Below the pieces are notes generated by a model, which was given only the letters and a program-made list of their open reading frames with translations, was not told where the DNA came from and searched no databases. A DNA stretch of 64,000 nucleotides, taken from positions 1 through 64,000 of the forward strand of contig VOQV01000002.1 in assembly GCA_016642085.1 (NCBI GenBank). The letters are read 5' to 3'. Shown here piece after piece: positions 7,774 to 53,739 of this stretch (position 1 is the first letter of the stretch; each line of letters starts with the position of its first letter). The translations under genes were made by a program, and so were the position numbers. The DNA is from Pantoea sp. Brub. GTDB lineage: Bacteria > Pseudomonadota > Gammaproteobacteria > Enterobacterales > Enterobacteriaceae.

Positions 7774-9615
7774 CTATACACATAAAATACATGTAAGTAT
7801 AATTAAAGATCCTAAAGCTATTGATATTATATACCACCGTAAATATCCACTTTCTGTCAATAATAATTGTTTATTTATGATATTTAAAAATAATATAGGT
7901 AACTTAATCAAGTAATTGATAGGATCTCGATGTAATAAACTAGCAATGAATATATATGGTTTAACAAATAATTGGTTATATAACCAATCAAATCCCCAAG
8001 CCATAGACCAAAAATTATAAAGAAAACGACCCAATATATTATTAGTAATGTTAATAATTAGTTGAGGGCGATTTAAATATAAAACAACAGATATCAAAAT
8101 ACCTAATATTGATATAAAACTAGATATACATGTAAATATGAATTTATTATTATTAACAATATGATAATCAGGAAAAATATTAGATAACGGAGGTATGATA
8201 AAAGATCCTATAACACTTGATAATACTATAAGAGATATTAAAGGCATATAATATCTAATACCTTTCGTATTTATTTGATCTATAAAATTTGTTTCTTTTC
8301 CATGAAACACAATAAAAATCATACGAAATGTATAAATTGCAGTTAGTAATGTACCAAATAATCCAATACAAATTAATATTGCATTACCATTAGTAAATAC
8401 GCTATAAAGGATTTCCTCTTTACTATAAAATCCTGCAGTAATTAAAGGTAAAGATGATAATGCAGATCCACCTATTAAAAAACAAAAATATAAAAATGGT
8501 ATTTTTTTTCTTAATCCTCCCATTTTAAAAATATTTTGTTCATTATTACAATACATAATAACAGCACCTGCAGATAAAAAAAGCAATGCTTTAAAAAAAG
8601 AATGTATCATTAAATGAAAAATCGCTACACTCCAAGCTTTTACACCTAATGCTAAGAACATATATCCAATTTGGCTCATAGTAGAATAAGCTAAAATGCG
8701 TTTTATATTATTTTGTACTAGAGCAGAACAACTGGCTAAAATTATTGTAACAGCTCCAATTAAACTAATAAAAAATAAAATTTCAGGGTTAATTAAAAAT
8801 AAACTGTTATTTCTTGCAATTAGATATACTCCTGCAGTCACCATAGTAGCAGAGTGAATAAGTGCTGATACTGGAGTTGGACCAACCATTGCATCTGCTA
8901 ACCATGTTTGTAATGGTAATTGTGCTGATTTACCTAATGTACCGATTAATAACATCACATTAGCTAAATAATAAATTGAATGATTAGAATCAAGATGAAA
9001 ATTAATTATTTCTTTTATTTTTAAAAATGTTAGTGTCTTAAATTGATAATAAATGATAAACATCGCTATAATTAAAAAAACATCGCCTACTCTTGTAGTA
9101 ATAAATGCTTTTATAGCTGCTTTACCATTTTTTGGATGTTTATAATAAAATCCAATTAATAAATAAGAACAAATCCCTACACATTCCCAACCAAAATACA
9201 TAACCATTAAATTATCAGCTAGTATTAAGATAATCATACTAGCAATAAATAAGTTAGTATAAGCTAAAAAACGTGAATAACCCTCTTCATAATTCATATA
9301 CCATGAAGAAAATATTTGAATTAATAAACCTACACCAACTACTACTGATAACATTGTTAAAGATAATCCATCAAGAATTAAATTAATTGTTATATTAAAA
9401 TTTCCAATATATATCCAATTCCATAGTGTTTCACTTAATACAATTTGATTGTTATGAAAAAAAATAAATCCTATAACTGCAGTTATTATAGCTGACAACG
9501 CAAGGGAACCAACACCAATTACTGTTGATATATTTTGTGGTAATCTTCCACAAGAAAAAGATAGCAATACAAAGCTAATTAACGGAAATAAAATAGGCAA
9601 GTAAAGCAAATTCAT
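7774..9615 (-). CDS. nuoL: NADH-quinone oxidoreductase subunit L
   Basis: 613 aa; [29 protein letters not shown] motif. Confidence 0.97.
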
Positions 9616-9911
9616 CCTTTCATCTCTCTCATAGAATCGATATTTAAAGAATGATAACGGTGAAGTTGTATTAATAAAGCTAAACCAATGCTTGTTTCAG
9701 CTGCAGCAAGACTAATAGCCATTATATACATTATTTGACCTTCAATTTGTTTCCAATAATTACCTGCAAATACTAACGCTAAAGCAGAAGCATTAAGCAT
9801 AATTTCAATACCAATTAGTATAAACATTAAATTACGACGCACTAATAAAGAAGTTAATCCAATTATAAATAAAATAGCAGAAAGGATTAATCCATACTGT
9901 AAATGGATCAT
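9612..9911 (-). CDS. nuoK: NADH-quinone oxidoreductase subunit K
   Basis: 99 aa; [12 protein letters not shown] motif; overlaps nuoL start by 4 nt. Confidence 0.96.
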
Positions 9912-9956
9912 AAGTACTCCTGATCGATTTGTATAATAACTAATGATATTATCATT

Positions 9957-10451
9957 TTATTTTTCTATTCGTCCAATGTGTAATGCTACTATTAAACTAG
10001 CTAATAACAACATTGAAATTAATTCTACTATTATCATATAATGACCAAATAGACTTATTCCTATTGATTTAGAGTCAATAATGCTTATATTAATTAATTT
10101 ATCATGAGTATTAGATACAGAATATATTATTATACATAATAATAATATAGATATGATTATTGAAATACATATAATTAAAAGATTTAACCAGTTTTTTTCT
10201 TGTTTGTTAGTAACATTACCAATGTTTAGCATCATGATTACAAAAACAAATAAAACAGTAATAGCACCAGCATAAATAATTATTTCTAATGCACCTATAA
10301 AATAAGAACCTATTAAAAAATATATACCAGAAATTGATAATAAAAAACTTATAAAATAAAATAACATATGCATAGGTTTAATATGAGTGATTGCACGTGC
10401 AGCTGTTACAGTAGCTATAAATCCAAGAGAATAAAATATTATTTCTTTCAT
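9957..10451 (-). CDS. nuoJ: NADH-quinone oxidoreductase subunit J
   Basis: 164 aa; YFIGALEIIIYAGAITVLFVFVIMML motif. Confidence 0.95.
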   Translation of the reverse strand: MKEIIFYSLGFIATVTAARAITHIKPMHMLFYFISFLLSISGIYFLIGSYFIGALEIIIYAGAITVLFVFVIMMLNIGNVTNKQEKNWLNLLIICISIIISILLLCIIIYSVSNTHDKLINISIIDSKSIGISLFGHYMIIVELISMLLLASLIVALHIGRIEK

Positions 10452-10461
10452 TTTTTATTCC

Positions 10462-11004
10462 TTAAGGCAATAATTCTTTTACACTTGTTGGCTTTTCTTC
10501 ATTTACAGCTTTGCCTTTATCTTTACCTTCAATGGATATGCCAGTTATACGATAAAAATTATAATCTGGATATTTGCCTGTTCCAGATATCAATAATTCT
10601 TCTTTTTCATAAACTAAATCTTGACGTTTAAATTCAGCTAATTCAAAATCTGGTATTAATTGAATTGCAGTAGTTGGACAAGCTTCTTCACATAAACCAC
10701 AAAAAATACATCTAGAAAAATTAATTCTAAAAAATTCAGGATACCAACGTCCATCTTTAGTTTCATTTTTTTTAAGAGAGATACAACTAACTGGACAAGC
10801 AACTGCACATAAATTACAAGCAACACAACGTTCTTTTCCATCAGGATCACGTGTTAAAACAACTCTACCTCTATAACGTGGAGATAAATAAACTTTTTCT
10901 TCAGGATAAAGTCTAGTTTCTCGTTTAGCGAAAATATGCATACCTGTCATTAAAATACTACGTATTACTGTACCAAAACCAACAATAATATCTTTAAAAC
11001 TCAT
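10462..11004 (-). CDS. nuoI: NADH-quinone oxidoreductase subunit I (2x 4Fe-4S)
   Basis: 180 aa; [15 protein letters not shown] and [15 protein letters not shown] ferredoxin motifs. Confidence 0.98.
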
Positions 11005-11019
11005 TTGTCAGTTCCTTTG

Positions 11020-11997
11020 CTATGTTTTTGTATATATAATTATTGCAGAAGTTACTAATAAATTTAATAAAGTTAAAGGTAAACAAATTTTCCAACTAAA
11101 AGACAACATTTGATCATATCTTGGTCGTGGAAGAGAAGCACGTATTAACATAAATATGATTATAAAAAACATAGTTTTAAATATAAACCATAAATATGGT
11201 GGTAAAAGTGGTCCATGCCAACCACCAAAAAATAACGTAACTATTATGGCAGAAACACTGGTAACTCCTATATATTCTCCTATAAAAAATAAACCAAATT
11301 TCATACCAGAATATTCAATATGATAACCATCAGCTAATTCTTGTTCAGATTCAGGTTGATCAAAAGGATGTCTGTGACAAACTGCAATTGCTGCAATAAA
11401 AAAAGTTAAAAAACCGAAAAATTGTGGTATCACATTCCAAATATATTTTTGACTGTTTATAATGTCATTCATATTAAATGATCCGGCTCTCATTACTACA
11501 CCCATCATAGATAAACCAAGAAAAACTTCATAACTTAATGTTTGTGCAGAAGCACGTATTGCTCCTAATAAAGAATATTTATTATTACTTGACCAACCTG
11601 CAAATAATACACCATAAATAGACAATCCAGCCATCATTAGAAAAAATAATAATCCTATATTTAAATTAATAACAATTAAATTAGATGATATAGGAATTAT
11701 TATAAATATCAATAACATAGACATAAATGTAATAACAGGCGCTAAAGCAAAGAAAAATGGATCGGAAAATGGTGGTATCCAGTCTTCTTTAAAAATGATT
11801 TTAATCATATCAGCTAATAATTGTAAAACCCCTCCCCAACCAACACGATTAGGACCATAACGATTTTGAAACAATCCCAATATGCGACGTTCTAAAAAAC
11901 TCATAAATGATCCACTAATTAATAATACTAATAGAATGATAATAGATTTAAAGATATTTGATGAAATATCTATAAAATTATAATTTAATAAATTCAT
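11020..11997 (-). CDS. nuoH: NADH-quinone oxidoreductase subunit H
   Basis: 325 aa; [21 protein letters not shown] and RPRYDQ motifs. Confidence 0.98.
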
Positions 11998-14717
11998 TAA
12001 ATAACTTCCTGTAAATTATCAATGTTTCTATTTATTAAGAAAAGTGGTACACCAGGCATGCCAATCGGTAAACCAATCTGGCCTGATTGCAATTTAGATG
12101 ATGTTTTTATCGGGAATTTAAATATTTGACCTAAACAAGTAAATTGAACAATTATATTGTTACTAAATTTTAGTTTATAAGCATCTTCCTTATTAAGGAG
12201 TAATATTGGATCTAATGCTATTTGTTGAAAAATTGGATCCCGTTGAAACATTTCTTCGCTATCAAATAGTTTATATAAAGGAACAATACGCCAAAAATTA
12301 CTTGGAATAAAAGCATTCGGTATATTATTAAACCAAGGAAGTAATGTTTTTGTAGTTGTAAATATTTTAACTCCAGGATCTCCATGAATTAGTTCACCAC
12401 CTATTTCATTTTGAAATTTATTCCATGATTGTACAGAATTCCATCCAGGATACCAAGCAAATGGAATTTGTGAATTATGTGATTGAGGTTGGTTATTACC
12501 TTCCATAGAAAAAGTAAACATCGTGTCAACATCTTGAGGTTGACGTGGTTCATGTATATTTTTATTAGCTAATATGGCAGTTCGTCCACTAGCACGACAT
12601 GGTAAACGTGATATTTTTTGACCATGAATGCGAAAGTTCGCATTTGGAGATGCACTTTTAATTTCTTTCAAATTTGGAAAATTTACAATTAAATCGTCAA
12701 TAACATTATCTAAACTTTTCCAGCTCACATCACAATTATTAATTTTGTTTTTTAAATAGTGTAACCAACGCCAACTTGCTAATAAAATAATATTATTATC
12801 ATAATATGAAGGATTATACACTTGAAAAAAGCGTTGAGCACGTCCTTCATTATTAATAACAGTACCACTACTTTCAACATAACTAGCAGTTGGAAATACT
12901 AAATTAGCTTTTTTAACTGTATCAGTATTTTGATGATCGATTGCAATTATATTTGCAGCTTTAGTCAATGCAGAATCAATTGATTGTTTAGGTGCATATC
13001 TGTAAAGATCATTTTCTAATATTACTAAAGTATCAGCTTTACCATTATTAATTTCTTTTAAAGCACTATTTAAAGTTTTTTGACCTATAATACTTAAACC
13101 AATACTATTGGTATATCTTGATAATAAAATAAGACTAACATCACTACCCTTACATTTTAAAGATCTTGCTATATTTCCAGCTGCTTCTATAATTGTAGAG
13201 CTACCTGAATGAACGCCCGAAATGATTAGTGGTTTTTTTGCATTTATTAAAGATTTGACAATTAAATTCACTTTATTTTTTAGAGTATTATTAAAATCAA
13301 TGACACATGGAGAATTACAGTCAATTGAATTAGCAATTGCAAAACCAAGACGAGCTTGATCTTCAACTGCTGCATAATAACTCCAAGATGAAATATCATC
13401 TAATTTAGTTTTATAAAAATTTGTTAAAAATAATGGATATTTATCATTTTGAGCTATATTAGATATAGCTGTTGCATGCCAAGATTCTATTTTATATTTT
13501 TTGGCTATTTTATATGCTTTACTTTTAATTGCTTGACGTATTGATAAAGCAAGACGTGCCCCTACTTGAGTAACATCTTCTCCTAAAATTAATATTGCAT
13601 CACAATTTTCAACTTCTCTTAATGAGGGTATATTTATACCGCTTTCAAATAATATTTTAATTATTACATCAAGACATTTTTGTTCAATATCCAACGTACT
13701 TACATAAAAGTTTTCTGCACCAACTAATTTGTAAAGTGCAAAATTACTTTCAAGACTAGCACGAGGAGATCCAATCCCAATTACTTTTTTTGCTTTTTTA
13801 AATATGTTAGCACCTGTATTAAGTGCTTCTTGTATACTAATTTTTACTCTTTGATGTTTCTTTAATTCTATAGGATATAAAGGACGATCTTTACGATTTA
13901 TATAACCATAATTAAATCTTCCTAAATCACAAAGAAAATAATGATTTAAAGTACCATTATAACGATTATTAATACGGCATATTTTGCCATATCGTTCACT
14001 AACACTGATATTACACCCAATACTGCAATGTTGACATATACTAGGTGCAAATTGCATATCCCATTTACGACTATAATTGTCTAAATTTAATTTATCAGTA
14101 AAAACTCCAGTTGGACATATTTCAATTAAATTACCAGAAAATTCATTATTAAGTACATCTCCATCTATACAACCAAAATAGATATTATCATGAGTCCCAT
14201 ATACACCTAAAGATTTGCCACCAGAGTAATCTTTATAATAACGAATACAACGATAGCAAGTTATGCATCGATTCATTTCATGCCGAATGAATGGACTAAT
14301 ATTTTGATTATAATAAGAACGTTTGTTATAACGATATTTGCGTAAAGTATGTCCATTCATGACAGTCATATCTTGTAAATGGCAATTGCCTCCCTCTTCA
14401 CAAACTGGACAATCATGTGGATGATTATTCATTAATAATTCAATTATACTTTTGCGAAATTTTTTTACTTCACTATCTTCAATAGAAATATATGTATTAT
14501 CAACAGCAGGTGTCATACAAGACATAACAATAAAACCAACAGTATCTTTTGAATTTTTAAATTGTTTAATCGCACATTGACGACATGCTCCAATACTTCC
14601 AAGAACAGGATGCCAACAAAAATATGGAATATCTAAACCAAAAGATAAACATATTTTTAATAAATTATCTTTTTCATTTACACTATATTTTTTACCGTCT
14701 ATATGGATTGTGATCAT
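11997..14717 (-). CDS. nuoG: NADH-quinone oxidoreductase subunit G
   Basis: 906 aa; N-terminal 2Fe-2S and 4Fe-4S motifs, CQHCSIGCN...CDLGRF extra cluster, molybdopterin-oxidoreductase-like domain. Confidence 0.97.
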
Positions 14718-14823
14718 AAAAAATTATCTTCTATACAAACCTGTTTAAATGAATAATAATTGTTATTTATAATAATTAGTAAATATAAATGTGCAAAACA
14801 CTAATTATCATTAAATATATTAT

Positions 14824-16173
14824 TTATATGAATTTGATTTTATAATCATTAGGTTGAATTCCTGCAATTGGTTGAATATCAACAGGCATTGTTGATATTA
14901 TTCCATCTTCAAATTCTTCACGAAAATACTTAATTGCACTTTGTAATGGTTCAACAGCACCAGGTGCGTGAGCACAAAAAGATTTACCAGGACTAAGATT
15001 TTGACATATTTGTTGTAATATTTCAATATCACCAGGTTTACCTTGTTTTTGTTCTAAATCATGTAAAATTTTTACACTCCATGGTAATCCTTCTCGGCAT
15101 GGTGTACATAAGCCACAAGACTCTCTTGCAAAAAATTTTTCGATATTTAATACTAGTGAAACCATGTTAATTTTATCATCGACAGCCATAGCAATAGCAG
15201 TACCTAAACGACTACCAGCTTGAGTAATACTTAAAAATTCCATTGGCAAATGTAAATGTTCATTAGTTAAGAAATCAGTACTTGCTCCTCCTGGTTGCCA
15301 AGCTTTAAGTTTTAATCCAGTTTTCATACCACAGGCATAATCTTCAAGAATTTCATGAGCTGTAATGCCAAATGGTAATTCCCATAAACCAGGATTATTA
15401 ACTCGTCCAGAAAAACCCATTATCTTAGTTCCAGTATCTGGACTTTTAGAAATATTCTTATACCACGATACTCCATTAGCTACAATAGCTGGTATATTTG
15501 ATAAAGTTTCAACATTATTTATACAAGTAGGTCTTCCCCAAAGACCTACATTCGCAGGAAATGGAGGTTTAAAACGAGGGTTAGCCCTTTTACCTTCCAA
15601 TGAATTAATTAATGCAGTTTCTTCTCCACAAATATAACGGCCAGCACCAGTATGAATAATCAAATCAAAATTAAAATTACTATTTAAAATATTATTCCCA
15701 AGTAAATTAGCTTCATATGCTTCATTAATAGCTTTTCTTAAATGAATAGCAGCGTCTATATATTCACCACGCAAAAAAATATAACCTCGATAAGTATTTA
15801 AAGCAAAAGCAGTTATTAACATACCTTCAATTAATTGATGAGGCATTTGTTCCATTAATAAACGATCTTTATAGGTACCTGGTTCCATTTCATCTGCATT
15901 ACAAATTAAATATTTTTTTTTAATTAAATTATCTTTAGGCATTAAACTCCATTTTAAACCAGTAGGAAAACCTGCTCCACCTCTTCCCTTTAAACCAGAT
16001 TCTGAAATTAATGCTATTAATTCACTAGAAAGCATTGTATTTAAAGCTATTTTTGCACCTATATATCCATTTTTACTACAATATTCTTTCATCCAAACTG
16101 GTTTTTTATCTTTTCTTAAACGCCATGTTAAAGGATGAGTTTCAGGGGTCATGATAATTTGTTTTTCTATCAT
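14824..16173 (-). CDS. nuoF: NADH-quinone oxidoreductase subunit F (FMN/NADH/4Fe-4S)
   Basis: 449 aa; [38 protein letters not shown]. Confidence 0.98.
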
Positions 16174-16685
16174 TTATATTGCTCCAAAATAGTAGCAATA
16201 AATTCCTGTTTTAAATTGGTATATGTTTTGTCGTTTATCATTATTACCGGTCCTTTATCACAATTACCTAAACAACAAACAGGTAATAAAGTAAATTTAT
16301 TATCATGAGTAGTTTGACCAGGTTTAATATTTAAATGATTTTCTATAAATAACTTAATATCTTCATAACCATTAATATAACATACCACACTATCACAATA
16401 ACGAATGATATAGCGACCAACAGGTTGACGAAAAATTTGACTATAAAACGTAGCTATACCTTCTAAATCACTAGCAGGAATTTGAAGTATTTTAGAAATA
16501 GCAATGATTGCATCATTAGATATCCATCCTCGGTTATTTTGTACAATTTTTAATGCTTCAATAGATAATGCTCTTGTATTTTCATAATATTTTTTTTCAT
16601 ATTTAATAGCATTACATTCTGCTTGACTTAGCACAAATGATTCTTTGGTATGTTTTTTCGTAACAACTATTTTTTTTATGTACAT
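16170..16685 (-). CDS. nuoE: NADH-quinone oxidoreductase subunit E
   Basis: Open ORF extends to 16721, but homology to NuoE starts near MYIKK at 16685, just past the nuoCD stop; CDSVVC and CLGNC motifs. Confidence 0.93.
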
Positions 16686-16689
16686 ATAC

Positions 16690-18489
16690 TTAACGATCCA
16701 CATCAGACATAACAAAATCAATACTACCTAAATAAACAATTAAATCAGATATTGAACTACCACGTATTACTGAAGGAATTTGTTGAAGATGGGGAAAACT
16801 TGGAGTACGTATACGCGTACGGTAACTCATATTTGTACCATCACTAATTAAATAATAACTATTTATACCTTTAGTTGCTTCTATCATTTGAAAAGTTTCA
16901 TTAGCAGGTATAACTGGACCCCATGATATATTAATAAAATGAGTAATTAAAGTTTCTATATGTTGTAATGTACGTTCTTTAGGTGGAGGTGTAGTTAAAG
17001 GATGATCTACTTTAAATGGTCCTTCAGGCATATTTATTAAACATTGTTTTAAAATAGATAATGATTGCCATATTTCTTCCATCTTTAATTTAACTCTAGT
17101 ATAAGAATCACTAATGCCAGTACCTATGGGAATTTCAAAATCAAACGATTCATAGCCTGAATATGGACGATATTTGCGTAAATCAAAATCTACTCCTGTA
17201 GCTCTTAAGCCTGCACCAGTAGTTCCCCATGCTAATGCTTCATGTTTATTATAAGACGCAATACCTTGTGAGCGTTTCATTAATATTTTATTTTTTAAAG
17301 CAACTGTATCATATTCTTTTATTCTTTTTGGTATCCAATTAAGAAGATTACGTAACAATTTATCCCAACCTTGAGGCAGATCATGAGCTAAGCCTCCAAT
17401 TCTAAACCAAGCAGGGTGCATACGAAAACCAGTAATAGCTTCAATAACATCATAAATTTTTTGACGATCAGTAAATGCTAAAAATACTGGAGTCATAGCA
17501 CCAACATCTTGAATAAAAGTAGAAATATATAGTAAATGACTATTAATGCGAAATAGTTCAGACAACATTACTCGAATAACATTTATACGATCCGATACAA
17601 CAATACCAGCTAGCTTTTCCACTGCTAATATGTATGGCATTTCATTTACACATCCACCTAAGTATTCAATACGATCTGTATATGGAATATAGCTATGCCA
17701 AGATTGTCGTTCAGCCATTTTTTCTGCACCACGATGGTGATAACCTATATCTGGAACACAATCTATTATTTTTTCTCCATTTAATTGAAGAAAAATGCGA
17801 AATGCACCATGTGCAGAAGGATGATTAGGTCCAAGGTTAAGAAACATAAAATCTTGACTACCTGTACTTCGTTCCATACCGTAATCTTCTGGATTTAGAA
17901 CTAATGCTTCCATTTCTAAATCTTCTTTTTGTTTATTTAATATAAAAGGATTAAATTCAGTAGCACGTGCTGGATAATCTTTTCGTAAAGGATGACCTTT
18001 CCAATTAGATGGCATAATAATTCGTACTAAATTTGGGTGTCCATCAAACTTAATACCAAACATTTCCCATGTTTCTCGTTCATACCAATTTGCATTTACA
18101 AAAATTTTAGTAATAGTAGGAATATGTAAATCATTTTCAGATAAAGCTACTTTAATTATCATATCTTTATTATGTAATATAGATAATAAATGATAAAAAA
18201 CGGAAAAATCTGCTTTAGGTAAATTTACACGCTGAGTACGAAAACGTTCATCTATACCGTGTAAATCATATAACATTGTATAAAAATTAGGTTTTTTAGT
18301 TAAAACTTTAACTATTTTTATTAATTGATTGCGATTAATCCATATGACTAAAATACCCATTCTGCTAGATTGAACAATGAAATTTCCTATTCCTAAATAT
18401 TTATTTAATTCATGAATTACTGGATCATCTAAATGATCTTGATTTTTAGGTGCACTAGTATTTTTTACATTGAAATTTATCATAAACAA
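16690..18489 (-). CDS. nuoCD: NADH-quinone oxidoreductase fused subunit C/D
   Basis: 599 aa; NuoC N-terminal part fused to NuoD ([33 protein letters not shown]). Confidence 0.97.
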
Positions 18490-27881: not shown

Positions 27882-29246
27882 TTAACAATTACGTAGTATA
27901 TGAAAAATAGTTTTAATCTTATTATCATCTTTAATACCAGGATTAATTTCAATTCCTGAATTTAAATCAAGTCCGGAAAAACCTAACTTAGCAGCTAAAG
28001 CACAATTATTGATATTTAATCCACCTGCTATAATTGCATTACTTAATGATTGTTCATTTTTTAATAAATTCCAATCAAAACTTTGTCCTGATCCACCACA
28101 TTTATAATCATATACATATAAATCAATATTTAAATAATTTCTTTTAGGTATTTTATTCGTTATCTGTAATGCTTTCCAAATTTTTATTTTTGATGGTAAT
28201 TTTTTTCTCAACTCATTGATAAATAATTGATTTTCATCCCCATGTAATTGAACAGCTGATAACTTAAGTTTTACTGCAGTGTCTATAATTTCATTAATTT
28301 TAGCATTTTGATAAATACCTACATATTTCAATTTTACACCAATCATTATTTTTCTGGCTTGTATAATATTAACTTTTCTAGGTGATTTATCTATAAAAAT
28401 CAACCCTCCAAAAATAGCACCAGCTTCATATGCTATGTGAGCATCTTGTGATCTAGTTATTCCACAAATTTTATTATTACCAAATAATATTTTTTTAGTA
28501 GCAAGATGCAGATCATTTTCTTTCATTAATGCAGATCCAATTAAAAACCCATTAACTAAATGATTTAACATGCGAATATCTGAATATTTACTAATACCAG
28601 ATTCACTAATAACTATTTCATCTTTTAAAAGATATGAAGTTAATTTTTTAGTATGATTAAGGTCAACAGATAAATCCTCAAAATTGCGATTATTAATACC
28701 TATTACTTGAGCTTTAAGAGAAATAGCACGTTTTATTTCTTCTTCATTACTAACTTCTGTTAAGATACCCATCTGTAATTTTTTTGCAAGTGCTGAAAGT
28801 TCAAGATATTTTTTATCATCTAAAACTGATAACATTAATAAAATCGCATCAGCACAATAATGACGGGCTAGATATATTTGATAAGAATCAATTATAAAAT
28901 CTTTACATAAAATTGGTTGTTTAACTACAGAACTAATGATTGAAAGAAAATAAAAATCACCTTGAAAATATTTTTCATCTGTTAACACTGAAATAACAGA
29001 TGCATACTTTCTATAAATATTGGCTATCTGTAAGAGATTGAAATTTTTACTAATTAAACCTTTAGAAGGAGAAGCTTTTTTACATTCTAAAATAAATTTA
29101 GTATCTTTCCCTTTTAAAGATTTATAAAAATCACGATTAGATAGTTGAATTTTTTTTTCAAAACTAATTAATGGTTGCATTTTTTTACGTGTTGAGATCC
29201 AATCAATTTTATCTTTAATAATTTTATTTAAAACAGTATCTTGCAT
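27882..29246 (-). CDS. trpCF: Bifunctional indole-3-glycerol-phosphate synthase / phosphoribosylanthranilate isomerase
   Basis: 454 aa; ECKKASPSKG (TrpC) and KICGITRSQDA, VQLHGDE (TrpF). Confidence 0.98.
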   Translation of the reverse strand: MQDTVLNKIIKDKIDWISTRKKMQPLISFEKKIQLSNRDFYKSLKGKDTKFILECKKASPSKGLISKNFNLLQIANIYRKYASVISVLTDEKYFQGDFYFLSIISSVVKQPILCKDFIIDSYQIYLARHYCADAILLMLSVLDDKKYLELSALAKKLQMGILTEVSNEEEIKRAISLKAQVIGINNRNFEDLSVDLNHTKKLTSYLLKDEIVISESGISKYSDIRMLNHLVNGFLIGSALMKENDLHLATKKILFGNNKICGITRSQDAHIAYEAGAIFGGLIFIDKSPRKVNIIQARKIMIGVKLKYVGIYQNAKINEIIDTAVKLKLSAVQLHGDENQLFINELRKKLPSKIKIWKALQITNKIPKRNYLNIDLYVYDYKCGGSGQSFDWNLLKNEQSLSNAIIAGGLNINNCALAAKLGFSGLDLNSGIEINPGIKDDNKIKTIFHILRNC

Positions 29247-29248
29247 AT

Positions 29249-30241
29249 TTATTTGTTTCCTGATAAAGCTAATACTAATTCATATGCTTGTCCACTACGA
29301 ATTTTAGTAAGAGCAAAATGTGCATTTTCACGTAAATCTTCATTGCCAAAAATTTTTAAAAGCATAGCTACATTTATAGCAATAGTTTCTTCATATACTT
29401 GTTTCCCCTTGCCTTGAAGTAATTCAATGACAAGTTTATAATTATTTTGAATGCTCATATTGGATAATATTTTTTTTGAATAAAATCCAAAACTTTCAGC
29501 AGTTAATTGGTAACAATGAATTTCTCCTTTACATAATTCAGCTACGTAAGTATTAGAATTTAATGATATTTCATCTATACCATCTCCATGTACTACTGCT
29601 GCACGATGATAACCTAAAGTTTTTAATATTTTAGCAATTGGCAATACAAGTTTTGGAGTATATACACCAATTAAAGCTAGTTTTGGTCTTGCTGGATTAA
29701 GTAATGGTCCTAAAATATTAAAAATTGTACGAGTTTGTAATTGTTTACGTACCAACATAGTATTACTAAATCCAGTATGATATTTTGATGCTAATAAAAA
29801 ACAAATATTTAAATCGTCTAACATCTTTCTAGATAGTTCTGCTGATATATCTAAATTAATTTTTAATTCTTCTAACAAATTAGATGAACCAAATTTATTA
29901 GATATCCCTTTATTACCATGCTTTACAATTTTTAATCCACAAATTGCAGCAACAATAGCACTAATTGTAGAAACATTAATATACTTTTTTTCACTTCCAC
30001 CTGTGCCAACTATATCAGCAAAATCATAATATGGACGTGGAAAGCTTTTAGCATTTTCTAATAATGCAGTTAATGCACCAAGAATTTCTTTTGATTTTTC
30101 TCCTCTAACTTTCATAGCTATTAAAACAGCTGATAATTGTATTGTATTTAGCTGACCTTTAATAATGCTATGAAATAATTGATAACTCTCCAATTGATTT
30201 AATATCTTTCCTTTATAAACCTTTTCTAAAATATTATTCAT
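29249..30241 (-). CDS. trpD: Anthranilate phosphoribosyltransferase
   Basis: 330 aa; DIVGTGGSEKKYINVST, KHGNKGISNKFGSSNLLE. Confidence 0.97.
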   Translation of the reverse strand: MNNILEKVYKGKILNQLESYQLFHSIIKGQLNTIQLSAVLIAMKVRGEKSKEILGALTALLENAKSFPRPYYDFADIVGTGGSEKKYINVSTISAIVAAICGLKIVKHGNKGISNKFGSSNLLEELKINLDISAELSRKMLDDLNICFLLASKYHTGFSNTMLVRKQLQTRTIFNILGPLLNPARPKLALIGVYTPKLVLPIAKILKTLGYHRAAVVHGDGIDEISLNSNTYVAELCKGEIHCYQLTAESFGFYSKKILSNMSIQNNYKLVIELLQGKGKQVYEETIAINVAMLLKIFGNEDLRENAHFALTKIRSGQAYELVLALSGNK

Positions 30242-30250
30242 AATAAAATA

Positions 30251-30835
30251 TTATATATTGTGTTTTACCCAAGATAGAGTTTGTTGTATTAATAGTGAAC
30301 CATGAGTAGTTAATATGGATTCAGGATGAAATTGAAATCCACAAATATTATCCTTGTTATTACGTATAGCCATGATCATATTATTATAATAAGCGTTAAT
30401 AATTAATTCACTTGGTATATCTTTACCAATTAAAGAATGATATCGTGCAACTGATAAAGGATTAGTTAATCCTTTAAACATATATTTATTATCATGATGA
30501 ATAAATGATGATTTACCATGCAAGATTTCTTTAGCTAAAGAAATTTTTCCACCATAAGATTCTATAATGGCTTGATGACCAAGACAAATACCTATAATTG
30601 GCATATATCCACGAGATATATTTATTAATTCTGGCATACAGCCAGCATTTTTTGGTATACCTGGACCAGGAGATAATATAAGAATCGGATTATCTAAATA
30701 TTCAATTTTTTTTATAATTAAATTGATAGGTATAGTATTACGATAAATAAAAACTTTATGATTTAAACAATGTAATTGATCAATTAAATTATAACTAAAA
30801 GAATCAAGATTATCTAATAATACAATATTTGACAT
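30251..30835 (-). CDS. trpG: Anthranilate synthase glutamine amidotransferase component (free-standing)
   Basis: 194 aa; GICLGHQAI catalytic Cys, FQFHPESILTTHG; in the same frame as downstream trpD, separated by one TAA. Confidence 0.97.
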   Translation of the reverse strand: MSNIVLLDNLDSFSYNLIDQLHCLNHKVFIYRNTIPINLIIKKIEYLDNPILILSPGPGIPKNAGCMPELINISRGYMPIIGICLGHQAIIESYGGKISLAKEILHGKSSFIHHDNKYMFKGLTNPLSVARYHSLIGKDIPSELIINAYYNNMIMAIRNNKDNICGFQFHPESILTTHGSLLIQQTLSWVKHNI

Positions 30836-32397
30836 TAAAAAATATCTTTACAATTATGTGCAATCGCAATAGCTTTTAAAACAGCTCTAGCTTTATTTCT
30901 GCTTTCATCAGCTTCAGATTGGGGATCAGAATCTAATACTATACCAGCACCAGATTGTACTGTAGCAATACCTTTTTCTATATATGCAGATCTAATAACA
31001 ATACATGTATCCATGTCTCCATGTGCAGTTAAGTATCCAATGGCTCCACCATAACTACCTCTTTTAGTTCCTTCTGATGCTGCAATTAATTGCATGGCAC
31101 GTATTTTTGGAGCTCCAGTGACTGTGCCCATATTCATGCATGCTCTATATGCATGCAAAACATCTAGATCATTTCTTAATATTCCAATTACACGTGATAC
31201 TAAATGCATTACAAAAGAATAACGATCTACTTTAATTAAATCAGTTACGTATCGAGTGCCAGGGATACAAATTCGTGCTAAATCATTACGAGCTAAATCT
31301 ACTAGCATTATATGTTCTGCTAATTCTTTGTGATTAGTGCGCATCTCTAATTCAATACGAGTGTCTAGATCTAAATCTAACGAACCATCTATTTTATAAC
31401 CTCTAGGTCTAGTACCTGCTATGGGGTATATTTCAATTTGACATGAATTGGAATTGTATTTAAGAAAACTTTCTGGTGATGCACCAAATAACGAAAAGTT
31501 ATAGTCTTGCATAAAAAACATATAAGGACTTAAATTATTAATTTTTAATATATTATACGCAGATAATGGACATGGACATGGTAAAAAAAATCTACGAGAT
31601 GGTACTATTTGAAAAATTTCTCCTAATAAAATTTTGTTTTTCATTTGAATAATTATATTACAATATTCTTCATCGCTTTGATTAATCACTAATTTCATAT
31701 TTTTTATAGTTTTATTTGGCAATAAAAAATTTTTTTTAGTAATTTGGTATTGTAATTGTTTAATACGATTTTCCAGTCTTTTAACTTCATTATTTGATGA
31801 ACAAAATATACTACCATATAAGAATGCTTTTTTTTCTTGATGATCAAATTTTAATAACACTTCAGATAAATAAAAACAATAATCTGGACAGCATTGTTTA
31901 CTTGTTAATTTAGGTATATCTTCAAAATTTGAAATTAAATCATAAGAAAACAAACCTCCTATTAAAAAAGATTCCTTGTTATTTATAGGAACATTAAATA
32001 ATTGCAACATTAATCTCAATACGTCAAAAATTGATAATGATTTTAGACGGTTATCTTCATCTTGTACTTTTAAAGAAATGGGAAAAGTTAATTTGCGTTT
32101 ATTAGTACTAATCTCATTTTGTATAATACTAGGCAATATTTTATCTAGTAATGATAATATTTTTAAACCATTAACTGATAAAGCTTTTACAAAAACATTT
32201 CTATCCAATGCAGTAATATGTACTGCACTATCTATAATAAGTAAACTTTTTAAATTTTTTTTATTATTAATATCAGCAGATTCAAGTAATAATGTTGCTG
32301 GTTTTGCGTTACATAAACGGTAAAATATTAAAGTAGGATTCGAGCAATATTTTACTTCTCTAGTAATTAATTTAATCATCGGTTTGGTATGTATCAT
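30835..32397 (-). CDS. trpE: Anthranilate synthase component I
   Basis: 520 aa; TLLLESADI, EIFQIVPSRRF, PIAGTRPRG, HMLVDLARNDLARI-type motifs. Confidence 0.98.
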   Translation of the reverse strand: MIHTKPMIKLITREVKYCSNPTLIFYRLCNAKPATLLLESADINNKKNLKSLLIIDSAVHITALDRNVFVKALSVNGLKILSLLDKILPSIIQNEISTNKRKLTFPISLKVQDEDNRLKSLSIFDVLRLMLQLFNVPINNKESFLIGGLFSYDLISNFEDIPKLTSKQCCPDYCFYLSEVLLKFDHQEKKAFLYGSIFCSSNNEVKRLENRIKQLQYQITKKNFLLPNKTIKNMKLVINQSDEEYCNIIIQMKNKILLGEIFQIVPSRRFFLPCPCPLSAYNILKINNLSPYMFFMQDYNFSLFGASPESFLKYNSNSCQIEIYPIAGTRPRGYKIDGSLDLDLDTRIELEMRTNHKELAEHIMLVDLARNDLARICIPGTRYVTDLIKVDRYSFVMHLVSRVIGILRNDLDVLHAYRACMNMGTVTGAPKIRAMQLIAASEGTKRGSYGGAIGYLTAHGDMDTCIVIRSAYIEKGIATVQSGAGIVLDSDPQSEADESRNKARAVLKAIAIAHNCKDIF

Positions 32398-48077: not shown

Positions 48078-49262
48078 ATGATAAAAAAATTAAATAATTC
48101 ATTACAAATTTATCCTTGGGGTAGTAAAACTGCTTTAACAAAATTATTTCAAATTAAAAATCCTAAACGTTTATCTATAGCAGAATTATGGATAGGAGCT
48201 TATCACAAAAATTCTTCTACTATATATCATAACAATAAAATACAGTCTCTTCGTGAAATTATTCATTCAAATCCTTCTAAAATTTTAGGTAATTTAGTAG
48301 CTAAACATTTTGGCGAATTACCATTTTTATTTAAAGTTCTATGTGTTGAGAAGCCTTTATCTGTTCAAGTTCATCCTAATAAAACTATCGCAGAAAAAGG
48401 TTTTATACGTGAAAATTTAAATTTAATTCCACAAAATTCCTATAAACGTAATTATCATGATAATAATCATAAACCTGAATTAGTATATTCTTTGACTTCT
48501 TTTCAAGCAATGAACGGTTTTAAAGATTTTTCTCAAATAGTTTCACTATTGGAACCAATTTCTTACATACATCCCAATATTTCTTTTTTTCAAAAACAAC
48601 CAAATCAAAAAAATTTATTAAATTTATTTTATGTCCTTTTAAATTTAAAAGGACAGTCTAAAATTTCAACTTTAAATTTACTTAAATCAAAAATTAATCA
48701 TTTAGATGGTGAAACATGGAATACAATAAAAAATATTGCTCATTATTATCCTAATGATAATGCATTATTTTTTCCAATATTTTTAAATATTATTAATTTA
48801 AAACCTAATGAAGCTATGTTTGTTTTTCCCGGTACTCCACATTCATATCTAAAAGGAGTAGCGTTAGAAGTAATGGCAAATTCTGACAATGTTTTACGTG
48901 CTGGTTTAACATCTAAATATATTAATGTTTTGGAATTTTTAACAAATTTAACATTTACAGATCAATCAATACAAAATATTTTAATGCGTAGTTTTCAAGT
49001 ACAAAATGAAATTTGTTTTCCTATTACAGTTAAAGATTTTGATTTTAAAATACACCTCTTAAGCAAGAAACCACAATTAATTATTCAAAAAAGTATATCA
49101 TTATTATTTTGCATTAAAGGAGAAGCTCTTATAGCTAAAAAATGTAAATATTTGAAACTTAAAGCAGGAGAATCTTGTTTTATTTCTGCTGATGAAGTAT
49201 ATTTTTATATTAGTGGCATTGGGAAATTAGCAAGAATATTTAATGATATAAACAAATTATAA
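48078..49262 (+). CDS. manA: Mannose-6-phosphate isomerase
   Basis: ORF reaches 48021; M at 48078 (MIKKLNNSLQIYPWGSKTAL) matches ManA; SVQVHPNK, NHKPELV. Confidence 0.96.
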   Translation: MIKKLNNSLQIYPWGSKTALTKLFQIKNPKRLSIAELWIGAYHKNSSTIYHNNKIQSLREIIHSNPSKILGNLVAKHFGELPFLFKVLCVEKPLSVQVHPNKTIAEKGFIRENLNLIPQNSYKRNYHDNNHKPELVYSLTSFQAMNGFKDFSQIVSLLEPISYIHPNISFFQKQPNQKNLLNLFYVLLNLKGQSKISTLNLLKSKINHLDGETWNTIKNIAHYYPNDNALFFPIFLNIINLKPNEAMFVFPGTPHSYLKGVALEVMANSDNVLRAGLTSKYINVLEFLTNLTFTDQSIQNILMRSFQVQNEICFPITVKDFDFKIHLLSKKPQLIIQKSISLLFCIKGEALIAKKCKYLKLKAGESCFISADEVYFYISGIGKLARIFNDINKL

Positions 49263-49846
49263 TGATAGATTACTTTATTTTATTCATTACCACAATGTTA
49301 GTTAATAATTTTGGATTAATACAATTTTTAGGTATTTGTCCTATAATAAGTTTATCTAATATTTTAGAAATAAATATTACTATAGGATTAACTAATACTA
49401 TTATAGCTACCTTAGCATCTATCGTTATATGGTTAATAAATAATTTTATATTAGTTCCTTATAATTTAATACATTTACGTAATATAACATATATACTTAT
49501 ACTTTTATTTTTTGTAAAATTTATTAAGATCATTATTAATGCAATTAATCCTAATCTATATAAATCTATTGCTGTATTTCTTCCTTTAATTATTACTAAT
49601 TGTGCTATATTTAATATATTATTAACAAGTAGTGTTATACCAAAAAAATTTTTTCAATCAATTTTATACAATTTTTCGTCTTTACTTGGTATATCATTAT
49701 TAGCAATATTATGTTCAAGTATGCATCAAAAATTAATGATTGCTAATGTACCAAAACCTTTTAAAGGTTATCCAATTATATTTATAAATATGGGTATAAT
49801 GTCCATGGTTTTTGTAGGTTTTATTAATTTAATTAAATATATATGA
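49262..49846 (+). CDS. rsxA: Rnf/Rsx electron transport complex subunit A
   Basis: 194 aa; FLGICP and LIITNCA conserved Cys motifs of RnfA. Confidence 0.95.
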
Positions 49847-50277
49847 AATTATTTTTTATATCTATAACAATGTTAAGTTCACTTGTGGTTTTATTAGAAT
49901 ATTTTTTATATTATTTACAGACATTAAATTTTTCTATTTTTAAAAAGATCAATAAATTTATTTTTAAAAATCAATTTACCTCTTCTATAAATTTCAAAAT
50001 AATCAATTCATTTAAACGCAAAGTAGTATGGATACAAGAAGATAATTGTATAGGATGTACTAAATGTATCTCAGTATGTCCAGTGGATGCAATTGTAGGA
50101 GCAAGAGGTTGTATACACACAGTATTAAGCAATTTTTGTATAGGATGCAATTTATGTATTAAAATTTGCCCTAGTCATTGTATAGAAATTCATTCAACAG
50201 ACGTAATTGTTAATATTGTAGAGTTAGATAATAAAATTATACCTATAAAGTTAGATGTGGTATATAGTAATGTTTAG
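49843..50277 (+). CDS. rsxB: Rnf/Rsx complex subunit B, N-terminally truncated (lacks first 4Fe-4S domain)
   Basis: 144 aa; [20 protein letters not shown] and [16 protein letters not shown] retained; the CGQCGYPGC...C domain of canonical RnfB is absent. Confidence 0.92.
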
Positions 50278-51883
50278 TTTTTTAAAACAAAAAAATATAT
50301 TTAATTTTTTTAAAAACAAACGTTCTACAAATAAATTACATAATCAAGATGTTTATTTAAATATATTACCTTTACCTAAATATTTCATTATACCCTTAAA
50401 ACAACATGTTGGTTATGAAGGTGAAATATGCGTTACTCCTGGTGATATGGTTTTGCGTGGACAGGCATTAACTTTAGGTAAAAATTATATGTTACCAGTC
50501 CATGCTCCTACATCTGGCGTGATAAAAAGTATTAACTATAATTCCATAACAGATAGTTCTAGTACAAAAAAAATGCATATTTTGTTAATACCTGATCATA
50601 AAGATCAGCAATTATCATGTAATTCTTATCCTGATTATAAGAAATATAATCGCATAAAAATAATTGAACATATCAATAATTTAGGCATTGTTAGTTTAGG
50701 AGGTACAGGAATTCCAAGTGCTATTGAACTTACATTAGGATTAAATTATCAAGTAGATGTATTGATTATAAATACTTATGATTTTAACTCTCTTTTCATA
50801 CAAAAAAATATTTATTTATTAATAGAGCAATATGTTTATGATATAATTGAAGGCATAAATATAATTATTTGGTTATTACAGCCTAATAAAACTGTTCTTA
50901 TTATCGAAGAAAGTAACATTCAAGCTATTATATTATTTAAAAGAGGATTTTTATATAATAAAAAAATACAAATTAAAATTATTTCTGCTAAATATGAATT
51001 TTATAATATTAAACAATTTATATATGATACAATCGGTCAAGTAGTACCAGTTAATAAAGAACCTATTGATGTTGGTATATTCATACAAAACATAAATACT
51101 ATAAAAATAATCAAAAGGGCTATAATTAATGGAGAACCGTTAACTGAACGAATAATTACAATAATAAATAAAAAAAATACTTATCAAATATTAAACATAC
51201 TAATTCGTCTTGGTACTCCAGTTAATCATCTTTTACATCATATAGACAATATTCTAAAATTTAATACAATATCTATAATTGATAAAAACATTGTAAAACA
51301 TCATATCGACTTGTTAAAACAACCATTAACAAAAACTATTAGTTGTATCCTTATATTTGATAGAAATAGATGTATTAATAATAAAACAATAATGGCATGT
51401 ATAAATTGTTCTAAATGTTCTGATATTTGCCCAGTTAAATTATTTCCTCAACAAATATATGCACATATTGAAGCAAATAATAATATCAAATTATATAATC
51501 ATGATATTAATAAGTGTATAGAATGTAGATTTTGTGATTATGTTTGCCCAAGTAATATCGCTTTATCAAAAAGTTTTCATAGAATAAAAATAAAGTTGCT
51601 AGCTATTAATATAGAAAAACAAAGAATAATTAACGTAAAGAAACGTATTCGAATACATAAAAATAGACTGAAAAACATTATACATTTAAACAATTATAAA
51701 AATATTCATGTTTTGAATAAAACAATGGATACTGAATTAATAGGTAATCATACAAACAAAATAAAAGATAATTATTTGCAAAAAGATATAAAAAGTCAAA
51801 CTAACATAGAACGAAAAATAACTGTACAAGAAGCTATTAATCGTGCTCAATCCAGAAAAACATTATTGCCATACGAAGATTAA
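50270..51883 (+). CDS. rsxC: Rnf/Rsx complex subunit C, diverged (flavin/NADH motifs eroded)
   Basis: Start [36 protein letters not shown] and [14 protein letters not shown] retained. Confidence 0.92.
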
Positions 51884-51890
51884 AAGTTTA

Positions 51891-52916
51891 ATGATATTAT
51901 ATAAGAAATTTATCATTTGTGAAAAAAATAAATTAGATACTAGTAAAATTATGCTATTAGTATTAATTGCGATAATTCCAAGTTTTATTTTACAAATTTG
52001 TTTTTTTGGTTATGGAATATTATTACAAGCAACATTAGCTATTGTTACTGCTTTATTTAGTGAAATAATAGTATTTATATTAAGAGGAATTAGTATTTTA
52101 AAAATTTTACAAGATAATTCATCATTCATCACTGCTATGTTAATAGGTATTAATTTACCACCTTTATCTCCATGGTGGATAGTATCCATTGGTACTTGTT
52201 TTGCAATTATCATAGCTAAACATATATATGGTGGATTAGGTCAAAATTTATTTAATCCAGCTATGGTAGGTTATGCTGCTTTACTGATTTCTTTTCCTAT
52301 GCACATGACAAATAACTCATTGATAAAAACATCTGATTATAATAAAATAAATTTATTAGATACAATCAATATAATTTTTTCAAATAGATCATTACAAAAA
52401 GATTTTGAATATCAAAAAAACATAATTAATTATACAAATAAAATAAAATTAATTAACAAATATTCTATTTTAGTGGCATTGTATAAAAAAATATTTACTA
52501 AAAAACATATAAGATTTTTAATGCAATGTAAATGGCAATTGATTAATTTATGTTATTTAATTGCAGGATTATTATTAGTATGGAAAGATATTATTAATTA
52601 TATAATTCCATTTTCAATACTACTATCATTGTTTTTTTTATATACAGTTAAGTGGTTTTTTTTACCTATTGCAATAAATTGTCCTATAAGCTACTTATTT
52701 TCAGGAGCAAATATGTTATGTGCTTTTTTTATAGCTACTGATCCAGTTACTTCAGCAACTACTAACTACGGAAAATTAATTTATGGTATTTTAATCGGTA
52801 TATTATTATTTTTTATCCAGAAAAATACATATTATTTTAATGAAGTAGTTTTTTCTATTTTAATAGCCAATATGTTTGTTCCTTTAATAGATTATTATAC
52901 TATCAAGAGAAATTAA
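51891..52916 (+). CDS. rsxD: Rnf/Rsx complex subunit D (SGAT to SGAN at flavinylation motif)
   Basis: ORF reaches 51843 overlapping rsxC; ATG at 51891 matches RsxD start; GGLGQNLFNPAMVGY, FSGANMLCAFFIATDPVTSATTN. Confidence 0.92.
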   Translation: MILYKKFIICEKNKLDTSKIMLLVLIAIIPSFILQICFFGYGILLQATLAIVTALFSEIIVFILRGISILKILQDNSSFITAMLIGINLPPLSPWWIVSIGTCFAIIIAKHIYGGLGQNLFNPAMVGYAALLISFPMHMTNNSLIKTSDYNKINLLDTINIIFSNRSLQKDFEYQKNIINYTNKIKLINKYSILVALYKKIFTKKHIRFLMQCKWQLINLCYLIAGLLLVWKDIINYIIPFSILLSLFFLYTVKWFFLPIAINCPISYLFSGANMLCAFFIATDPVTSATTNYGKLIYGILIGILLFFIQKNTYYFNEVVFSILIANMFVPLIDYYTIKRN

Positions 52917-52918
52917 TA

Positions 52919-53086
52919 ATGTTATTTTTATTGAAAAAAAATACTTTTATTTTAATAATATATGCATTAATTACTTCTGGATTAATTACCATAGTGCATA
53001 TACATACTACATCTGTAATAAAAGAACAAAAATGTAAATACGGAAAAAAAAATATTAATAATAATTTTTTTAAACAAAGAAATTAA
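52919..53086 (+). pseudogene. rsxG: rsxG remnant: 55-codon ORF, N-terminal membrane anchor only
   Basis: ATG...TAA encodes MLFLLKKNTFILIIYALITSGLITIVHIHTTSVIKEQKCKYGKKNINNNFFKQRN, between rsxD and rsxE at the rsxG position; resembles only the N-terminus of RsxG; below the ORF-track length cutoff. Confidence 0.8.
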
Positions 53087-53121
53087 TATATATTAATGCA
53101 AAACTAATATATATTTTTAAT

Positions 53122-53739
53122 ATGAAAAAAGATTATAATTTATTTTGCATGTTTGGTATTTGTCCTTTAATTATTACAACAGACACAGTGCTTAAAGCAT
53201 TCAGTTTAAGTATAATAATTACAATAACTTTGGTATTAAGTAATATTATTATTTCTTCAACTCGTAATTTAATAACTGAAGACACAAAAATTACAGTTTA
53301 CTTAATGACTATCGCATGTATAGTTAGTTGTGAACAAATGTTATTAAATGCTTATATGCATAATGTATATCTTTATTTAAAAATATATATTCCTTTAATT
53401 ATTACTAATTGTTTTATTATTCATCATATAGTACAAATAGCATCTAAAAATAATGTTATTAAATCTGTTTTATATGGATTATACGCAATGCTAAAAATAA
53501 CATTCATGATGTTATTTTTAGCATTTATCAGAGAAATTTTTAGTAAAGGAACTATATTAAGTGATATTGAGCAAATATTTGGTTATTGGTCTCATATTTT
53601 TATTATACATATTATTAAATTTTCTTCGCCAATGTTGCTATTTAGTTTAACACCTGGAAGTTTTATTATACTTGCTTTTATTCTTGCTGTAAAAAATGCA
53701 TTTACTTATAAAGTAAAAAATAATAATTTATTGAAATAA
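53122..53739 (+). CDS. rsxE: Rnf/Rsx complex subunit E
   Basis: 205 aa; FGICPLI and PLIITNCFII Cys motifs; followed by nth as in E. coli. Confidence 0.92.
   Translation: MKKDYNLFCMFGICPLIITTDTVLKAFSLSIIITITLVLSNIIISSTRNLITEDTKITVYLMTIACIVSCEQMLLNAYMHNVYLYLKIYIPLIITNCFIIHHIVQIASKNNVIKSVLYGLYAMLKITFMMLFLAFIREIFSKGTILSDIEQIFGYWSHIFIIHIIKFSSPMLLFSLTPGSFIILAFILAVKNAFTYKVKNNNLLK

Follow-up and report, generated by a model that had tools for sequence, protein, structure and literature searches.

What becomes of an Rnf complex that loses its flavins? The question is raised by the rsx operon in a stretch of 64,000 nucleotides (here called the window) from the genome of Pantoea sp. Brub, G000 in our numbering. 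This is the reduced, AT-rich genome of an enterobacterial endosymbiont, 843 kb in 30 contigs and 99.9% complete. A preliminary description, made from the letters of the window, had seen in the operon an Rnf/Rsx complex that had been stripped of its flavin determinants while keeping its iron-sulfur (Fe-S) motifs. It proposed either an ordered early stage of loss or a repurposed, flavin-independent Fe-S electron wire. The analysis presented here favours, at a probability of roughly 0.6, a concerted loss of the flavin and ion-pump arm with continued selection on the ferredoxin part of one subunit, RsxB.

Solved structures of Rnf give the electron path. It leads from RnfB via the small tethered 4Fe-4S domain of this subunit to the RnfA/E cluster and on to the flavin mononucleotide (FMN) of RnfG; later stations are FMN and riboflavin on RnfD and, finally, RnfC (PMC11889175). 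The complex fails in mutants of the tethered RnfB domain or of the RnfA/E cluster, and likewise when the mutation affects FMN on RnfG or the riboflavin site of RnfD; a direct transfer from RnfB to RnfC is held unlikely in view of the distance (PMC11889175). The roles of ApbE, a flavin transferase, and of SoxR in E. coli have been reviewed (PMC12174285). Usually, Rnf is regarded as one machine that needs every cofactor of its electron path. A literature search revealed no prior description of a flavin-less Rnf or of a lone RsxB in symbionts, with most subscription papers being outside its coverage.

What the operon has lost and what it has kept

The genes stand in the E. coli order, rsxA-B-C-D-(G stub)-E, between manA and nth, and every frame is open. 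The six Rsx subunits are all recognised by family models, RsxG solely via its first 44 positions. Coordinates, models and gene order thus bear out the syntenic open operon of the preliminary description. Stops and frameshifts are absent from rsxA-E over about 1,430 codons, and the codon-position composition of the genes is still gene-like. Residues were called by alignment to E. coli Rsx and about 30 other operons; the key residues of RsxD and RsxC were placed by sequence onto the solved RnfD and RnfC. Absences in G000 were judged from searches against the genome. The features, all on the + strand, are:

49262..49846, +, rsxA, 194 residues; both [2Fe-2S] cysteines kept (LGICP, TNC); more eroded than in comparators
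49843..50277, +, rsxB, 144 residues; N-terminal helix and ferredoxin domain with two clusters; the first 4Fe-4S domain, which is the relay, is deleted
50047..50082, +, first ferredoxin cluster motif of RsxB (CxxCxxCxxxCP)
50137..50172, +, second ferredoxin cluster motif of RsxB (CxxCxxCxxxCP)
50255..51883, +, rsxC, 542 residues; well-kept barrel; erosion in the FMN domain and in the Fe-S domain, the latter with its 8 cysteines kept
50699..50716, +, FMN glycine loop of RsxC, GGTGIP; kept
50780..50794, +, FMN site of RsxC, DFNSL where ECEPY is expected; lost
50990..51007, +, KYEFYN of RsxC where KYPSGG is expected; lost
51398..51433, +, first cluster motif of RsxC; kept
51515..51550, +, second cluster motif of RsxC; kept
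51891..52916, +, rsxD, started at the first ATG; the listed open reading frame begins with GTG at 51843
52254..52256, +, Asn of FNPA in RsxD, equivalent of riboflavin ligand N123; kept
52309..52530 (approximate), +, periplasmic loop of RsxD; SQAT with the FMN threonine missing
52740..52742, +, Asp of TDPVT in RsxD, equivalent of riboflavin ligand D249; kept
52919..53086, +, rsxG stub of 55 codons; reduced to the N-terminal helix, without an FMN domain
53122..53739, +, rsxE, 205 residues; about 12 N-terminal residues short; both [2Fe-2S] cysteines kept; eroded

The losses begin with RsxG. Its stub (55 residues versus 206 in E. coli) aligns with no more of the 209-position RsxG model than positions 3-44, and a second rsxG copy, sought across the genome of G000, was not found; the loss of the FMN domain, as first described, is therefore real. 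The same holds for RsxB, which has 144 instead of 192 residues: alignment to E. coli confirms the deletion of the first 4Fe-4S domain, which there contains Cys49/52/57/74. In RsxD the SQAT motif that bears the FMN threonine (Thr187 of E. coli) is gone. The asparagine that had been read at this place is, however, a matter of alignment; a gap or some residue other than threonine is obtained. RsxC had been said to be devoid of its FMN motifs and of those for reduced nicotinamide adenine dinucleotide (NADH). This is correct for ECEPY and PSGG, but not for the glycine loop GGxGxP, which is retained as GGTGIP, and the Complex1_51K model is still matched. RsxD, in turn, retains the equivalents of both riboflavin ligands of Acetobacterium woodii RnfD, N123 and D249. 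To call the complex stripped of recognisable flavin determinants was thus too strong: the wording fits RsxG, the threonine of RsxD and part of RsxC, but neither the riboflavin-ligand equivalents nor the glycine loop. Judged from these residues, one flavin site, that for riboflavin on RsxD, may survive in the window.

The cysteines of the remaining clusters are present throughout (20/20; two each in RsxA and RsxE, eight each in the RsxB ferredoxin domain and RsxC), in line with the persistence of Fe-S motifs noticed at first sight. In view of the erosion of the respective domains, the chance of retaining all 20 is about 7e-6, although cysteine ligands are slow sites anyway.

ApbE disappears together with the flavin sites

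The transferase that attaches FMN was sought in G000; there is no apbE, no candidate for it and no remnant. The comparison with other reduced genomes discloses a pattern. ApbE is found in 23/23 of those that have an intact threonine site in RsxD and a full RsxG, and in 0/3 of those with an open but flavin-stripped Rnf, i.e., G000, G076 (contig of 836,724 bp) and G087 (contig of 745,590 bp). By simple counting, this split of 3 versus 23 has a chance of 1 in 2,600, a figure that can only be a guide, since the genomes are related. Like G000, G076 and G087 lack the FMN domain of RsxG and the FMN threonine of RsxD, and their RsxC FMN motifs are degraded. All three keep every cluster cysteine of RsxA, the RsxB ferredoxin domain, RsxC and RsxE as well as both riboflavin-ligand equivalents of RsxD. 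The Rnf-less genomes that were searched are also without ApbE, with the exceptions of G145 and G248. In these two, RnfD matches below the cut-off in a frame of 416 residues, which is probably NqrB, another target of ApbE.

Judged from the trees, the flavins would have been lost independently at least twice (in G076 and in the others), probably three times. The tree of Rnf subunits joins G000 and G087 and the housekeeping tree separates them, with weak support at G087; a single loss shared by these two genomes is the less probable case.

A few deviations were seen in passing. The RsxG threonine is replaced by serine in 4 of the 23 flavin-intact genomes: the FMN motif TGAT reads TGAS in Buchnera-like genomes, at L064, L065, L057 and L058 (G139, G245, G251 and G316), ApbE being present, and serine would there be the FMN acceptor. 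In the RsxC of Buchnera-like genomes (loci L045-L065 and some others), motifs are altered, with ESEP where ECEP is expected, and the barrel is only weakly conserved; the flavin sites of their RsxD and RsxG are intact. At L069 (G087), nth is an open frame of 164 residues that matches from residue 48 of the Nth of the window; its start may have been lost or frameshifted.

Selection versus neutral decay

How far the subunits of the window have eroded was expressed as z-scores relative to the 23 reduced genomes with intact flavin sites, conservation of Nth being held equal. RsxA (z -2.7), RsxE (z -3.7) and the Fe-S domain of RsxC (z -3.9) are more eroded than there, and the FMN domain of RsxC, too, is below expectation. 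Not eroded are RsxD (z -0.8), the ferredoxin domain of RsxB (z -0.2) and the RsxC barrel (z +2.0); outside its periplasmic loop, RsxD is as conserved as in the flavin-intact genomes (z -0.1). Erosion in the window is therefore not limited to the flavin and NADH steps, contrary to what had been claimed. The window is further along in the loss than G076.

G076 offers a clearer view. Its changes were counted in columns that are invariant in six outgroups and were compared with those of G209, a flavin-intact and equally reduced relative of the same genus. The excess is strong in RsxG (107:5) and in the FMN domain of RsxC (43:13, p 7e-5). It is mild in RsxD (50:31, p 0.045) and in the N-domain of RsxB (17:6, p 0.035). 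No significant excess is seen in RsxA, RsxE, the barrel and the Fe-S domain of RsxC, the ferredoxin domain of RsxB or Nth. The RsxC FMN domain of G076 also stands apart when it is tested against all unaffected parts taken together (Fisher p 0.005). As an observation beside this, rsxG of G076 (L066, 5910-6442) is an open stub of 97 codons that is followed by about 240 bases up to rsxE, apparently the remnant of a decaying gene.

What neutrality would have done was simulated. For the FMN domain to show an excess of about 20%, about 0.1 substitutions per site are required; at this divergence about 31 stops in rsxA-E are expected for G076 and about 27 for the window, while 0 are observed. A neutral divergence of just 0.02 would already yield about 6. 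Plain pseudogenisation is seen in G305 (L070), where many stops run through rsx and ApbE is broken; its congeners retain both. The view that random decay would not produce such an operon is hence supported by the concerted loss of ApbE and flavin sites, by the pattern of G076 and by the absence of stops where tens are expected. In G076, selection on the remaining rsx genes continued when the flavin loss had at least partly taken place, and the same presumably holds for the window.

RsxB on its own

Five congeners of the window's genome, G001-G005, form its sister clade in the tree built from four proteins of the neighbourhood. RsxD is absent from them genome-wide; RsxA, C, G and E are absent at the rsx locus, to which the search for these four was confined. 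What they keep, between manA and nth, is rsxB. The stand-alone protein has 104-110 residues, all ferredoxin cysteines (8/8) in two CxxCxxCxxxCP motifs and a score above the RnfB family cut-off; the membrane helix and the first cluster domain are missing. An ordered loss, as one of the two initial proposals had it, is thereby supported: the sister clade retains just the RsxB ferredoxin domain at the locus. At L042 (G005), manA beside the lone rsxB matches in pieces, with 130 residues in the longest frame, and looks broken.

The same outcome is met in the genus g63 (3 genomes, one of them with a contig of 686,194 bp) and in G095, where rsxB adjoins tyrS or lies near it. Pairwise ratios of nonsynonymous to synonymous substitutions (dN/dS) of the stand-alone rsxB, comprising the congeners and the g63 copies, range from 0.16 to 0.46, as estimated by simple counting on diverged pairs. 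A survey of 80 genomes from 44 genera, picked for an absent or, in G305, a broken RnfD, yielded an RnfB match in 4/44 genera: three have an intact RsxB, and the fourth is the broken copy of G305. Retention of RsxB is recurrent, not the rule.

Known systems for comparison

A close known system is RsxABCDGE of E. coli, the SoxR-reducing member of the Rnf family. The window shares its gene order, five of six subunits by family models and the cluster cysteines of RsxA/E, the RsxB ferredoxin domain and RsxC, and has the equivalents of the riboflavin ligands of RsxD. It differs in being without the RsxG FMN domain, the FMN threonine of RsxD, the relay domain of RsxB and ApbE; the FMN site of RsxC is partly lost, and SoxR was not found in G000. 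RsxC and RsxD of the window also align over most of their length with those of the solved Rnf complexes of Acetobacterium woodii, Azotobacter vinelandii and Clostridium tetanomorphum (9eri, 8ahx, 7zc6). Unlike these, the window lacks cofactor sites whose need in those complexes has been shown by mutation, the small RnfB cluster domain and the RnfG FMN (PMC11889175). The stripped Rnf of G076 and G087 differs from that of the window by its retained RsxB relay domain and, in G076, by RsxA and RsxE evolving at the expected rate. Bacterial 2[4Fe-4S] ferredoxins resemble the stand-alone RsxB of the sister clade, which contains two CxxCxxCxxxCP motifs and, over its 104-110 residues, no membrane helix. 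This RsxB, however, has a score above the cut-off for RnfB and is encoded at the rsx locus, and RsxB of the window still has its N-terminal helix.

Interpretation

The most probable course of events is the following. ApbE, the FMN domain of RsxG, the FMN threonine of RsxD and part of the FMN site of RsxC have been lost in concert. With them, electron exchange between NADH and ferredoxin and ion pumping would no longer be possible, to judge from the published mutants and structures. Selection most likely acts to keep the ferredoxin domain of RsxB with its two clusters, which could carry electrons to Fe-S enzymes of the cytosol, in the window still tethered to the membrane by its helix. The likely end state is that of the sister clade, where RsxB is retained as a small soluble ferredoxin and the rest is deleted, RsxD genome-wide and the other subunits at the locus. 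A bolder version is tempting, but we rate it somewhat below even odds: a flavin-free Rnf remnant would be actively maintained in several unrelated symbionts, RsxB having become essential and ending as a free-standing ferredoxin, so that an ion-pumping complex repeatedly converges on one small carrier.

Some observations weigh against the preferred explanation, i.e., concerted flavin loss with selection on RsxB. The comparison brought up no electron donor or acceptor of RsxB, flavodoxin is present in all genomes, and bioB is no common partner. RsxA, RsxE and the Fe-S domain of RsxC are eroding in the window as well, and selection after the flavin loss is best demonstrated in G076, not in the window. 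The dN/dS of rsxB rests on diverged pairs and simple counting. Finally, only 3/44 of the searched genera without RnfD have an intact RsxB, so that most reduced symbionts can do without the ferredoxin.

Could the operon simply be a pseudogene caught early, the loss being recent, with ApbE and RsxG gone, the open frames residual and no selection on the operon left in G000? The deletion of RsxG and of the RsxB domain would fit, as would subunits eroding faster than their comparators and the loss of A, C, D, G and E in all five congeners (A, C, G and E by locus). We nevertheless consider it rather unlikely. Even the slight neutral divergence of the simulation predicts stops that the reading frames do not contain, the full set of cluster cysteines is kept, and plain decay, as exemplified by G305, looks different. 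Moreover, apbE has vanished without remnant, which implies that its loss is not very recent. A membrane core with a role of its own, independent of ferredoxin, would consist of RsxD with bound riboflavin and RsxA/E and might act in transport or as a scaffold for RsxB. The conservation of RsxD outside its loop and the riboflavin-ligand equivalents in three stripped genomes speak for it; yet erosion in the window is greatest in RsxA and RsxE, and the sister clade no longer has this core (RsxA and RsxE by locus), which renders the proposal improbable. Still less can be said for the Fe-S wire of the preliminary description, in which the clusters of RsxB, RsxA/E and RsxC would pass electrons to another Fe-S partner. 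The ligands of these clusters are, of course, kept in all three stripped genomes. In the window, however, RsxB no longer has its relay domain and RsxG is lost, which leaves the RsxA/E cluster without donor and acceptor; the RnfB-RnfC distance makes a direct shortcut unlikely (PMC11889175), the RsxC Fe-S domain is eroding, and SoxR is missing from the matches. With several stations lost, the first included, a wire through the leftover clusters is implausible there, and for G000 the idea finds no support.

Three ideas on a partner or role were considered and rejected. SoxR, or a recipient like it, had been suggested at the outset; the genome search of G000 gave no SoxR match. A substitution of RsxB for flavodoxin was dismissed, since fldA was matched in 76/76 reduced genomes searched. 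Biotin synthase is not an obligate partner of RsxB either, since the RsxB-only genome G283 has no bioB.

If concerted loss with selection on RsxB is accepted, comparative genomics splits Rnf. A flavin module, made up of ApbE, RsxG, the threonine site of RsxD and the FMN domain of RsxC, is lost together; a second module, the RsxB ferredoxin, survives alone in three genera. The locus is a clean case of the ordered dismantling of a complex. It also provides a testable idea for Rsx in bacteria without SoxR: electron carriage through RsxB.

Other genes of the window

Elsewhere in the window, on the - strand at 7774-18489 and 27882-32397, the complex I genes nuoL, nuoG and nuoCD and the genes trpE, trpD and trpC/F are intact. 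It follows that the symbiont respires NADH via complex I and can synthesise tryptophan.

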